Below, piece after piece: positions 4,127-43,322 of a stretch of 64,000 bases of DNA. The stretch is from Thermophilibacter immobilis (lineage in GTDB: Bacteria > Actinomycetota > Coriobacteriia > Coriobacteriales > Atopobiaceae), in assembly GCF_015277515.1 (NCBI RefSeq), contig NZ_CP063767.1:2012770-2076769 (forward strand), written 5' to 3'. The notes below the pieces were generated by a model. That model was not told the DNA's origin. It saw only the letters and a list, made by a program, of their open reading frames with translations, and searched no databases. The stretch's first letter is position 1; each line of letters starts with the position of its first letter. The position numbers were made by a program, and so were the translations under genes.

Positions 4127-4522
4127 CTATGTGTCCAAGAGCTCATTGGTGTGAACCGCACTTTCCCTGATGAGAGACAGCGCCTCATCCACAAGCTCTG
4201 CAGTGAACTTCCCCTGGTCAAGACTCATGTAGAGCCCGATGAGCGCGGGCAGATTCACCCCCGTAATTACATCGCACTGATACTTACGCGTCAGGGCGGA
4301 GAAGACGTTGGAAGGAGTTCCCCCTAAGAGGTCGACGAGCACAATCACGCGCTCACCATGAGCCGCAGCGAGTTTCTCTTCAGCCAGGCACGTGAAATCT
4401 TCGAAGGACATCCCCGGCATGAGAGACACGACCTCGATGCCCTCAAGCTTTCCTAGTATCATCTCGGCGGACTTCACGAGTTCTTCGCCAAGCCTTCCAT
4501 GCGTTCCTAGAACAATTTTCAT
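4127..4522 (-). CDS. PTS mannose-family IIA component
   Basis: A single-domain EIIA-Man protein of 131 residues that accepts phosphate from HPr on His8 (KIVLGTHGRLGEE) and passes it to IIB. The LLGGTPSN segment (about 65-72) is typical of the fold. I start at 4522, where CAGGAAACGT precedes the ATG; the upstream in-frame ATG at 4540 has no ribosome site. The gene lies between the hydroxyacid dehydrogenase and the DapA-like aldolase instead of next to IIB, so the EII genes are interleaved with enzyme genes. Confidence 0.9.
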   Translation of the reverse strand: MKIVLGTHGRLGEELVKSAEMILGKLEGIEVVSLMPGMSFEDFTCLAEEKLAAAHGERVIVLVDLLGGTPSNVFSALTRKYQCDVITGVNLPALIGLYMSLDQGKFTAELVDEALSLIRESAVHTNELLDT

Positions 4523-4542
4523 ACGTTTCCTGTCTGCCATAC

Positions 4543-5472
4543 CTAGAGGCCCAGGTGCTCGAGCACGACACCCGTGGAGACGGCACAGGTACGTGCCTCC
4601 GATTCATTGGTCCTTGAGCCAATGTGGGGAGTGAGCAGGAAGTTGTCGAGCGAGAGCAGGCGGTCATCAGGTGCGGGGGGTTCTTTCGAATACACGTCAA
4701 AACATGCGGAGCGAATCTCCCCATTCATGAGGGCGTTGTAAAGATCGCCTTCATCCACGACCCCTCCGCGCGCGGCGTTGACCAAGCATGCGTTGGCTTT
4801 CATAAGCTTGAGTTCTGGCTCAGCAATCAAGTTGTGCGTACTCTCAAGCAAGGGGACATGAAGAGATACATAGTCGGAGCCCTCGAGAAGATCGTCGAAA
4901 CTCGCTATCTCAGCGCCGTACTCCTCTGCTGTTTTTGTATCCACAACAAGGGCATCATAGGCCTTAACACGCATGCCGATTCCCGCGGCAATTCGCGAGA
5001 GACATTTCCCGATAGCGCCAAATCCTACGATACCTAGCGTCTTTCCAGCAAGCTCTGTCCCTGTCGGCTTACCCCATCCTCCGCCTTTAACCTCACGAAG
5101 CGCGGGCCACAGATTCTTGGCGTCTGCGAACATGAGCGCGGCCACATGCTCGGCAACGGACAGCGAGTTTGATCCGACAGTACGCCCCACGAAAATTCCC
5201 CTCTTAGCGGCATGCGCAACATTGATGTTGTCGGTCCCCACTCCGAACTTACAAATCACCTTAAGGTGGGAGCACATGTCGATGACCTCATCGCCCATCC
5301 GGTCAACGCCGACGATAATGGCGTCGGCATCGGTCGCCTTCTTAAGGAATTGCTCTGGCGAATAGGCCCTGCCAGTGTCGTTGTAGTCCACCTCGAGTCC
5401 CTTGGATTCCATCCGCTTGACCTCATCGAGCCCATACTTGGCAAACCCACGGGGCGTGATGAGAACTTTCAT
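4543..5472 (-). CDS. D-2-hydroxyacid dehydrogenase (SerA-like)
   Basis: A 309-residue NAD-dependent D-isomer 2-hydroxyacid dehydrogenase. It has an N-terminal substrate domain, the Rossmann motif GFGAIG (about residue 150), the catalytic Arg in NAARGGVVDE and the catalytic His in TPHIGS. It lacks the ACT/regulatory domain of long SerA proteins. In this sugar-acid PTS operon it could reduce a 2-keto acid, or oxidise a 2-hydroxy acid, derived from the imported compound (for instance a 2-ketogluconate-type reductase) instead of acting in serine synthesis. That role is inferred from context. A phosphoglycerate dehydrogenase remains possible. Confidence 0.82.
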   Translation of the reverse strand: MKVLITPRGFAKYGLDEVKRMESKGLEVDYNDTGRAYSPEQFLKKATDADAIIVGVDRMGDEVIDMCSHLKVICKFGVGTDNINVAHAAKRGIFVGRTVGSNSLSVAEHVAALMFADAKNLWPALREVKGGGWGKPTGTELAGKTLGIVGFGAIGKCLSRIAAGIGMRVKAYDALVVDTKTAEEYGAEIASFDDLLEGSDYVSLHVPLLESTHNLIAEPELKLMKANACLVNAARGGVVDEGDLYNALMNGEIRSACFDVYSKEPPAPDDRLLSLDNFLLTPHIGSRTNESEARTCAVSTGVVLEHLGL

Positions 5473-41601: not shown

Positions 41602-42915
41602 CTACGCGCGTGCGAGCGCCTGGTCAAGGTCGGCGATAAGGTCCTCGACGTTCTCGATGCCCACCGAGAGACGCACGAGGTCCTCGGAGAGATGGGCCTC
41701 CCTGAGCTGCTCCGCCGAGAGCTGGGAGTGCGTGGTCGAGGCCGGGTGGATGATCAGCGACTTGGCATCGCCCACGTTGGCGAGGTGCGTGAACAGGCGC
41801 ACCCTCTCGACGACGCGCAAGCCCGCCTCGCGGCCGCCCTTAACGCCGAACACCAAGACGCCGCCAAAGCCGTGGCGCAGCAGACGCGCAGCGAGCTCGT
41901 GAGACGGGTCGTTCTCGAGCCCCGCGTAACGCACCCAGCTGACCTTGGGATGGCCCTCCAGGAAGCGGGCCACCGCCAGGGCGTTGTCGGAGTGGCGCTG
42001 TACGCGCAACGAGAGGGTCTCGATGCCGATACCGATGAGCTGAGCCGCGTAAGGAGAGAGCGTGGGGCCAAAGTCACGCAGCTTGTTGGCAAGCACGCGC
42101 GTCGAGAAGGGCGCCGCGGCAGCGGCCTCAGCGAAGACAAGGCCGTGATAGGACGGGTCGGGCTCAGTAAGGGTGGGGAACTTGCCGGGAACGGCCCCCC
42201 AGGCAAAGGTCCCCGCATCGATCACGGCGCCGCCGAGCGTGGCACCGTGACCGCCGATCCACTTGGTCAGCGACTCGATCACCACGGCCGCGCCGTCCTC
42301 GGTGGGACGGTAGAGATAGGGCGTCGCAAAGGTGTTGTCAACGAACACGGGAAGGTTGAGCGAGCGGGCCGCCTCGACGAGGGCGGGCACGTCGGCCACG
42401 TCGACGAGGGGGTTGCCTATGGTCTCCACGTACCAGAGCTTGGTGTGCTCGTTGCTGGCGGCAACGAAGGCGTCAATGTCGTTGTTCTCGACGAAGGTCG
42501 TCTTAACCCCTAGGTCGGCGAGGGTGTGCAGGAAGATGTTCCAAGTGCCGCCATACAGGGAGTCAGATGCCACGATCTCGTCGCCGGCGCCCACGATGTT
42601 GGTGATGGCCAGGATCTCGGCGGCGTGACCCGAGGCGACGGCCACGGCCCCGGTCCCGCCCTCTATGGCGGCCACGCGCGCGGCCACCGCGTCGGTGGTG
42701 GTGTTGGTCAGGCGACCGTAGACGTTGCCCGGCCTGGTGAGACCGAACTTGCCGGCGGCGTCAGCGGCGTCGTCAAACTGAAACGCTGCCGAGGCATAGA
42801 TGGGCAGCGCGGCCGCCCCGGTCGTGGGGTCGGGGGCCAAACCCGCGTGGACCTGGAGGGTGTCAAAGTGCTTCTCGGGATCGGAGGAGAAGGTGGGATC
42901 AAGCTGGAAGGCCAT
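41602..42915 (-). CDS. metY: O-acetylhomoserine sulfhydrylase (MetY-type, PLP-dependent)
   Basis: A 437-residue Cys/Met-metabolism PLP enzyme. It makes homocysteine from O-acetylhomoserine and sulfide (or cysteine from O-acetylserine in some relatives). The PLP lysine is in IESLTKWIGGHG. YGRLTNTT, SDSLYGGTWN and the C-terminal LSVGIENVEDLIADL are typical of MetY. AGAGAGGAACC precedes the ATG. It is monocistronic and preceded by a 23-codon leader peptide and a strong hairpin, so Cys/Met-dependent attenuation is likely. Confidence 0.93.
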   Translation of the reverse strand: MAFQLDPTFSSDPEKHFDTLQVHAGLAPDPTTGAAALPIYASAAFQFDDAADAAGKFGLTRPGNVYGRLTNTTTDAVAARVAAIEGGTGAVAVASGHAAEILAITNIVGAGDEIVASDSLYGGTWNIFLHTLADLGVKTTFVENNDIDAFVAASNEHTKLWYVETIGNPLVDVADVPALVEAARSLNLPVFVDNTFATPYLYRPTEDGAAVVIESLTKWIGGHGATLGGAVIDAGTFAWGAVPGKFPTLTEPDPSYHGLVFAEAAAAAPFSTRVLANKLRDFGPTLSPYAAQLIGIGIETLSLRVQRHSDNALAVARFLEGHPKVSWVRYAGLENDPSHELAARLLRHGFGGVLVFGVKGGREAGLRVVERVRLFTHLANVGDAKSLIIHPASTTHSQLSAEQLREAHLSEDLVRLSVGIENVEDLIADLDQALARA

Positions 42916-43002
42916 GATGGTTCCTCTCTGCAGGGGGAGAAGGCAGCGCCGACCGCAGCCGTGCGCACCTTGTCTAGGTTGTATGGTGAGAAAAGGCGAA
43001 CC

Positions 43003-43057
43003 GCCCGAGGCCAGACGCGGGCATGCGAGAAGAACCCGTGTCTAGGCGACCTCGGGC
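43003..43057 (-). promoter_or_regulatory. Attenuator-like hairpin in the metY leader
   Basis: On the minus strand GCCCGAGG (43050-43057) pairs with CCTCGGGC (43003-43010), and inside it CTAGACACGGG pairs with CCCGCGTCTGG with one mismatch, giving a stem of about 18 pairs. It contains the leader peptide stop codon. A TTTT run follows ten bases later. Translation of the leader to its end would disrupt the 5' arm. It is thus either a terminator opened by the ribosome or a sequestration stem. Confidence 0.55.
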
Positions 43058-43113
43058 CTGCGCATGAACAACCCCATGCAGATGAGCGCATTGTATACGT
43101 GCTGCTTCTTCAT
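43042..43113 (-). CDS. Leader peptide upstream of metY
   Basis: A 23-codon frame beginning MKKQHVYN and containing ALICMGLFMRRP, with one Cys and two internal Met codons. It ends at a TAG inside the hairpin at 43003-43057. Its ATG lies eight bases after a TAGGAT -10 box, the geometry of leaderless actinobacterial mRNAs. The start of metY is 126 bases further on. Leader peptides rich in the amino acid whose synthesis is controlled are the hallmark of attenuation. Function is inferred; the frame and hairpin are seen. Confidence 0.6.
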   Translation of the reverse strand: MKKQHVYNALICMGLFMRRPEVA

Positions 43114-43120
43114 GTGCCTA

Positions 43121-43148
43121 ATCCTAGCAAAGTGATGAAGATTCGCAA
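43121..43148 (-). promoter_or_regulatory. Promoter of the metY leader
   Basis: On the minus strand: -35 TTGCGA (43143-43148), 16-base spacer, -10 TAGGAT (43121-43126) preceded by TGC (extended -10). Transcription would begin at or next to the leader ATG. Confidence 0.5.
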
Positions 43149-43263
43149 GCCGTGTTGTGTAAGCACTTTGTTACGGGAGCCCCTCGCATCCGTCTCCCTC
43201 TCTCCTCCATCCCTTCGAAGGCCTCCCCCTCTCCACGACGGGGGACGGAGAGGGCGCCGATAA

Positions 43264-43300
43264 GAAAAAGCACCCGCCTCGCAGCGCGCGAGACGGGTGC
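43264..43300 (-). terminator. Terminator of the rubrerythrin gene
   Basis: Arms 43270-43282 and 43288-43300 (13 bases, one mismatch), then TTTTTC on the minus strand, 22 bases past the stop. A further stem CCCTCTCC/GGAGAGGG lies at about 43223-43253. The stretch 43149-43263 holds no gene. Confidence 0.8.
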
Positions 43301-43322
43301 CCAAGAGACGACAAGGCGCGAC

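Follow-up and report, generated by a model that had tools for sequence, protein, structure and literature searches.

The window analysed here, a stretch of 64,000 nucleotides (nt) from Thermophilibacter immobilis (contig NZ_CP063767.1), carries on its minus strand the gene metY, of the O-acetylhomoserine sulfhydrylase family, preceded by a 23-codon leader frame encoding MKKQHVYNALICMGLFMRRPEVA, a -10 box close to the leader ATG and a strong RNA hairpin. The leader frame, the box and the hairpin before metY are confirmed as real. The unit looks like a built-in gauge of methionine supply, and often also of cysteine supply, and is proposed to be a ribosome-mediated attenuator that gauges Met for metY, with Cys added in leaders of the window's type (class A, below); judged from sequence, this is probably its role, with ample room left for doubt. 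Computational support comes from a conserved coding frame, a fixed spacing between a Met codon and the hairpin arm, covariation of the stem and the kind of target genes. A preliminary description had proposed a Cys/Met leader peptide whose hairpin answers to ribosomes stalled on an Ile-Cys-Met (ICM) segment. This attenuator interpretation is partly supported: a conserved, mostly leaderless peptide with a conserved hairpin stands, as does Cys within class A, whereas Cys is not a constant feature of these leaders, the constant being the phasing of the Met codon to a stem that is placed as an antiterminator.

Leaders at metY and the phased methionine codon

The search for close metY orthologues gave 59 matches that reach 75% identity or more and contain the start of the gene (57 of full length and the partial G386 and G232), from which 55 upstream regions were classed; G400, G415 (class A by profile), G409 and G331 were missed because the start pattern did not locate metY, and orthologues cut at the start (G366, G403, G408, G419) were left out. 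Class A, the window type, accounts for 21 loci, class B, with a 16-residue leader of type MERTQTYQPIPGRQMP, for 11, and class C, made up of other short leaders, for seven, while 16 have no recognised leader, very different leaders not having been searched for in these. When 396 genomes of the class Coriobacteriia were searched with a class B profile, 11 strong hits came up, all in the window's family (Atopobiaceae) at the class B metY loci. Cys is present in the 21 of 21 class A metY leaders examined, and in three copies that stand before other genes, and is missing from 15 of the 39 metY leaders (11 of class B and four of class C); the window leader has a single Cys codon.

Across these unlike peptides, the 5' arm of the hairpin (GCCCGGGCTC or a variant, with GGGGCAGG in four short class A leaders) starts 8 nt past the A of a Met codon in frame with the leader, leaving five bases between that ATG and the arm, in 39 of 39 metY leaders and in all three other copies. 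The phased Met is residue 17 in class A and residue 15 in class B, and five of the seven class C leaders have one internal Met; the stop codon, 2 to 12 codons further on, has no fixed place. A control codon is thus present at a fixed distance, single rather than tandem, and the stem that adjoins it covaries. Over 32 distinct arm sets, 87.5% of 320 cells are paired, with the foot pair formed in 31 of the 32 and both sides changed at nine of ten pairs, and the covariation score is 0.378; shuffled sets average 0.143, none of 500 being as high, and slid ones give at most 0.166. This bears out the covarying pairs that had been put forward as a check. No 2:3 structure came out of the folding of G388, G335, G290 and G300, and G205, G244 and G386 folded into different, longer structures; for these seven the arms were taken from a separate analysis or by eye.

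The minimum-energy fold of the window hairpin has 19 pairs (10+4+5, interrupted), its foot joining 43057-43048 with 43012-43003; the strong stem of about 18 pairs in the preliminary description is therefore there, although only part of the stop codon that it was said to swallow lies inside. For the 114-nt leader the folding energy is -48.3 kcal/mol (z -2.0), a value matched by 8 of 200 shuffles, so that its stability is mildly unusual at most; leader and hairpin are lifted above chance by 26 profile matches and in-frame purifying selection, both described below, and by the covarying stem pairs. No U-run directly follows the window hairpin, unlike the U-tailed terminator of the neighbouring rubrerythrin gene. 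Because the stem can form with a ribosome waiting at the Met or Cys codon and would be opened by a ribosome moving onward, its placement resembles that of an antiterminator rather than of a U-tailed terminator. With Cys absent from 15 of 39 leaders while the Met-to-arm distance is fixed in all of them, Met is the constant sensor candidate, to which Cys would be added in class A, and a combined Met/Cys gauge is the best reading of that class. In G414, G416, G300, G319 and G336 (loci L191, L190, L194, L151 and L183), two alternative 3' arms, one near and one far, are available to one 5' arm.

Conservation and start of the leader peptide

A DNA similarity search with the leader over 40 genomes (its own and relatives) returned its own genome only, so peptide and profile searches were needed. 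Over the 396 class genomes, the peptide search at E up to 1 hit 24 places spread over 23 genomes; 16 of the places, in 15 genomes, had E below 0.01, and all of these lie within the window's family. Among 140 family genomes, profile A2, built from 12 rows, identified 26 strong loci (E below 1e-10) spread over 24 genomes; run across the 396 class genomes at E<=0.001, it matched 15 genomes, every one in the family and none outside it. Lack of conservation in relatives had been named at the outset as grounds for abandoning the idea, and peptide and hairpin both prove to be conserved. Pfam and NCBIfam hold no family for the three leader peptides tried.

In class A (21 leaders, 16 codons) the in-frame ratio of nonsynonymous to synonymous change (pN/pS) is 0.16 (pN 0.099, pS 0.601), the remaining two frames giving 0.82 and 1.24. 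An in-frame ratio so far under those of the other frames indicates selection on the class A leader at the peptide level and is consistent with the translated leader of ribosome-mediated attenuators. Among the 39 metY leaders, 34 have a TANNNT box ending 6-10 nt upstream of the ATG, compared with 1.9% of 5131 background positions; on this promoter placement, a leaderless start appears to be the rule among metY leaders, with exceptions.

Genes behind the leader

By position, a metY orthologue lies downstream at 23 of the 26 strong loci. The remaining three, one in G308 and second copies in G406 and G349, stand before transporter operons with peptide and hairpin kept in place. The G308 leader, MTTKKRHTYCCCICLGLFMPGPGLA, carries MTTKKRHTYCCCICLGLFM, a Cys run (CCCIC) in its own frame, and precedes a family 3 type amino acid ATP-binding cassette (ABC) transporter operon ending in S-methyl-5'-thioadenosine (MTA) phosphorylase (348.7 bits, cut-off 306). 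The presence behind one leader of an ABC transporter, of predicted amino acid type, followed by MTA phosphorylase (L199, 5219-9526) suggests that this operon imports methionine or a methylthio compound. Downstream of the second G406 copy lies an ABC transporter resembling that of G308. The second G349 copy is followed by energy-coupling factor (ECF) type ATPases, an ECF S component (nearest to the CD3073 family, under its cut-off and over the Pfam ECF_trnsprt cut-off) and a CD3072 TudS-related desulfidase (154.7 bits, cut-off 130); this ECF-type transporter with its desulfidase (L197, 3615-7706, with unknown bases within 4269-5261) gives a hint of sulfur compound uptake. Two of the three non-metY copies would thus point to sulfur compounds, and G406 does so through its likeness to G308. 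The predicted functions of the target genes, with metY foremost, support the tie to sulfur amino acids drawn in the preliminary description.

Proposed mechanism and output

In the proposed mechanism, the transcript would start at or next to the leader ATG, as promoter placement suggests, and the peptide would be translated without a ribosome-binding site. When Met-tRNA is scarce, or in class A also Cys-tRNA, the ribosome would wait at the Met or Cys codon with its front edge just touching the foot of the hairpin, which could then form and permit expression of metY. A Met codon occupying the A site would put the start of the stem at about +12 from the first base of the P codon, near the point at which ribosomes open mRNA; the stem would accordingly stay whole while the ribosome waits at Met, or farther upstream at Cys in class A. 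When Met and Cys are plentiful, the ribosome would proceed, open the 5' arm and finish at the stop codon; the hairpin being absent as RNA polymerase passes, metY would be turned off, most likely via Rho acting on the C-rich untranslated stretch, and in a few genomes because the freed 3' side pairs with the Shine-Dalgarno (SD) sequence of metY. Stalling, its direction and the output step are inferred, and the stem is taken to be the 'on' structure during starvation, in classical attenuator logic, because of the job that MetY performs.

Rho is the leading output candidate, with modest confidence. The tail between hairpin and metY has a mean excess of C over G of 0.099 (38 loci), compared with -0.028 in 25 window 5' regions obtained by rough gene calling (p 2.6e-6) and with 0.034 in the 16 metY regions that have no leader (p 0.008). 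The best 20-nt pyrimidine fraction averages 0.80 in class A, 0.69 in class B, 0.58 in class C and 0.71 where there is no leader, and the C-rich tail together with the pyrimidine runs of class A would fit Rho. G300, with a spacer of 357 nt, was excluded from the analyses of tail composition, SD exposure and SD pairing. Two other elements were tried and rejected as general features. Small stems past the 3' arm were no better than shuffles over 42 loci, and the scan gave no terminator in the window leader, which speaks against an intrinsic terminator; the competing U-tailed 3:4 terminator of trp and his attenuators does not rise above shuffles over the same 42 loci, and the leaders are not assigned to that group. 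A local terminator is a possibility in the window, where the stretch GGCG-GTT-CGCC-TTTTCTC occurs. The second, a trp-like 1:2 hairpin, was given up as a general feature after synonymous-codon shuffling and is retained for class B.

Alternative explanations

The same sensor might act on translation, the freed 3' part of the hairpin covering the metY SD unless a stalled ribosome lets the hairpin form. This alternative overlaps the preferred explanation, from which it differs in output alone, and is unlikely. In the window the loop/SD duplex reaches -23.8 kcal/mol, with 2.5% of 200 shuffles as good, which is suggestive of an alternative structure covering the SD at this locus, and CUCUC/GAGAG-type SD pairs are seen at the short class A loci G377, G384, G420 and G338 (fractions 0.005, 0.075, 0.12 and 0.365). 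Such pairing is not general, however: the shuffle fraction is below 0.05 at 5 of 38 loci, and SD sequestration was accordingly rejected as the general output and retained for a few loci. It is unlikely that the leader is a pure cysteine attenuator as in mycobacteria, in which the Cys codons sense and Met is incidental. Such a device would account for the Cys found in every class A metY leader examined and in the three other copies, as well as for the CCCIC of G308, and leaderless polycysteine leaders are known from mycobacteria, as PMC9031893 and PMC13236596 describe; but the 15 metY leaders without Cys nevertheless hold Met at the fixed distance from the stem, and the window leader has just one Cys codon.

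A nascent chain that arrests its own ribosome would make use of the residues themselves, KK.H.Y and IC.GLFM in class A (TY and G.QM in class B) stalling in the exit tunnel on a sulfur metabolite and the hairpin reporting the stall. Residue conservation in class A exceeds what a codon counter needs, Y7 is common to classes A and B, many leaders have TY upstream and Met near the end, and Met-Pro-stop ends most of the class B and short class A leaders. Yet different residues follow Met (P, R, L, K, C, Q and I in metY leaders; T, Q and P in the other copies), one genus, g8, holds GACATA in another frame and so loses TY, and few class A residues recur in classes B and C, conservation beyond the control codons being strong inside class A and weak between classes; arrest is thus quite unlikely. 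Equally doubtful is a broader version, a family of arrest peptides in bacteria of Atopobiaceae type that would detect methionine, or a sulfur metabolite related to it, within the ribosome itself, the hairpin sitting at the mRNA entrance once the Met codon has reached the A site; if true, it would mean that one codon suffices to switch metY, methionine salvage and sulfur transport. Finally, the frame may encode a small conserved protein or be a relic with no control of metY, which would be regulated elsewhere. No such leader is seen at 16 of 55 metY loci, 15 of which have GATAAC/GTTATC-type half sites, but the peptide-plus-hairpin unit also precedes three other operons and the hairpin keeps its distance to Met across unlike peptides, making this very unlikely.

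Several observations weigh against the Met-reading attenuator itself. Classical attenuators use runs of control codons, and the sole obligatory control codon here is one Met; the surplus of conserved residues in class A leaves room for an arrest peptide. Coding constraint is weaker in class B (pN 0.213, pS 0.450; no other-frame ratio computed). The displaced GACATA of genus g8 implies that the peptide matters less there or that the nucleotides matter too, and the -10 box is off the leaderless distance in five of the 39 leaders (G393, which has a TTG start, G319, G336, G349 and G205). In the seven class C leaders the phased Met was the analyst's choice, the 3' arms were selected by complementarity, which favours pairing, pairing in G244 begins two bases further on, and the p values are overstated by the relatedness of the sequences. 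As to the output, a 3:4 hairpin is not a general feature (shuffle fraction below 0.1 at 4 of 42 loci, median 0.40), and SD pairing is no more general (class medians 0.265, 0.495 and 0.565). Mean SD exposure hardly shifts between the two states (0.54 and 0.51, 38 loci), classes B and C have no pyrimidine run, and a 1:2 hairpin around Met has support in class B, where it does better than synonymous recoding in 6 of 11 leaders (near copies among them), but not in class A (2 of 21) or class C (0 of 7).

In genus g8 (G110, G199, G205; L134, L138, L152), the nucleotides GACATAY are kept in another reading frame, with loss of Thr-Tyr, the residues that they specify in most of the remaining leaders of classes B and C.

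Relation to known attenuators

A Met-codon-phased leader before metY would be of a known general kind, ribosome-mediated attenuation, in a new form. Known riboswitches and other structured RNAs, such as SAM riboswitches and T-boxes, were discounted, Rfam giving only tRNAs and signal recognition particle (SRP) RNA (window at gathering scores; 13 loci to E 0.5). The nearest relatives are the leaderless polycysteine attenuators of mycobacteria (Canestrari 2020, as described in PMC9031893 and PMC13236596), which likewise place a leaderless short frame before sulfur amino acid genes, with codons proposed as sensors of sulfur amino acids; the leaderless ATG is matched here by the predicted placement of TANNNT boxes. 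Unlike those attenuators as there described, the present leaders have no Cys run outside the G308 copy, and they combine a single constant Met and a covarying hairpin phased to it with other targets in another bacterial class. Short frames with Cys codons before actinobacterial cys operons, lacking a conserved terminator hairpin and proposed to work through Rho, offer a second likeness (Seliverstov 2005, PMC1262725), although that survey of Actinobacteria reports no conserved RNA structure ahead of methionine operons, whereas one is present before metY here.

With trp, his and ilv attenuators, on the mycobacterial ilvB1 model as PMC13236596 presents it, the proposed mechanism shares the principle that the position of the ribosome on control codons decides a downstream stem. 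It departs from these attenuators, as that model portrays them, in having no obligatory tandem control codons, no general terminator hairpin and a stem phased to one codon.

TnaC of E. coli is a conserved arrest peptide that stalls in answer to tryptophan, with Rho as its output. The leaders resemble it in their conserved peptide, in the Met-Pro-stop at the end of some of them and in the proposed use of Rho, and are unlike it in that few residues are common between classes, the stop codon has no fixed place and a ligand is only postulated. Literature on Met-codon, metY, Coriobacteriia, Olsenella or Atopobium leaders yielded no report of Met-codon attenuation and no earlier description of the peptide in Coriobacteriia, as the preliminary description had supposed, with subscription papers mostly outside the coverage. 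If the proposal is true, a one-codon gauge with a codon-phased hairpin would be a simple test bed for the control of a gene by a single slow codon, and would give a handle on sulfur amino acid control in the window's family.

The window locus

Features of the locus are collected below. In the window promoter, 16 nt separate the -35-like hexamer from the -10 box and 7 nt separate the box from the ATG at 43113; the extended -10 (TGC TAGGAT) of the preliminary description is present, its gap to the ATG being seven rather than eight bases, and the 23-codon frame is there as described, with its stop codon at 43044-43042. A consensus scan of 42900-43320 found 0 promoters at the window leader, so the promoter call rests on the placement of the -10 box, and the sole terminator that it found is the U-tailed stem of rubrerythrin. 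Since rubrerythrin ends in such a terminator-like stem, metY probably has a transcription start of its own.

Features of the metY leader locus in the window
Feature	Coordinates	Strand	Basis or remark
Rubrerythrin frame	43901-43323	minus	neighbour upstream of leader
-35-like hexamer TTGCGA	43143..43148	minus	sequence; weak match, absent from consensus scan output
-10 box TAGGAT, TGC before it	43121..43126	minus	7 nt ahead of leader ATG; leaderless mRNA expected
Leader peptide MKKQHVYNALICMGLFMRRPEVA, 23 codons and stop	43042..43113	minus	frame, peptide and profile searches, class A pN/pS
Cys12 codon	43078..43080	minus	Cys in 21/21 class A metY leaders examined
Met17 codon	43063..43065	minus	8 nt from Met A to 5' arm start, as in 39/39 metY leaders
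Hairpin 5' arm (segment 2) GCCCGAGGTC	43048..43057	minus	fold, covariation
Loop stretch complementary to metY SD	43024..43037	minus	window locus; not general
Hairpin 3' arm (segment 3) GGCCTCGGGC	43003..43012	minus	fold, covariation
Stem of 4-5 pairs with TTTTCTC	43006-42988	minus	fold and sequence
C-rich stretch from hairpin to metY, possible Rho entry	42916..43002	minus	composition
metY Shine-Dalgarno region	42929-42919	minus	sequence
metY, O-acetylhomoserine sulfhydrylase family, presumed regulated gene	41602..42915	minus	TIGR01326, 570.6 bits, cut-off 495.1

Evolutionary history

On a MetY tree of 51 rows, of which three outgroup rows stand on long branches and 15 of 47 inner branches are open, 7 changes are needed to account for class A, where shuffling gives a mean of 16.9; class B takes 2, class C 3 and the absence of a leader 6. 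The deepest split in the family has class A rows on either side. This type of leader may therefore be old and have later been replaced and, several times, lost, although the outgroup is too distant for certainty. Genus g19 has class A leaders placed inside or beside the class B clade, which would call for regain or exchange.

Upstream of metY, half sites of the form GTTATC/GATAAC (or GCTATC/GATAGC) occur, in several loci as GTTATC-N9-GATAAC (examples are L140, L141, L143, L155 and L162). Over the 55 loci, they are present in 15 of the 16 without a leader, and their mean number per 330 nt is 2.73 in class B, 2.00 in class C, 2.19 where there is no leader and 0.05 in class A (1 of 21), for a motif chosen after inspection of the regions and with no chance control run; G386, which has a class C leader with two Cys, has none. 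The Cys-containing leader and a presumed DNA-binding regulator seem to replace each other at metY; that this leader and a palindrome-like operator are seldom found at one gene would, if the proposal is true, also make the locus a handle on regulatory turnover.

Within genus g1, the window's genome (G000) alone has a close metY orthologue (2.2e-290), the other g1 genomes in the search giving nothing better than 3.4e-125 (43-46% identity where listed) or no match; the metY locus was either kept here and lost elsewhere in the genus, or gained.
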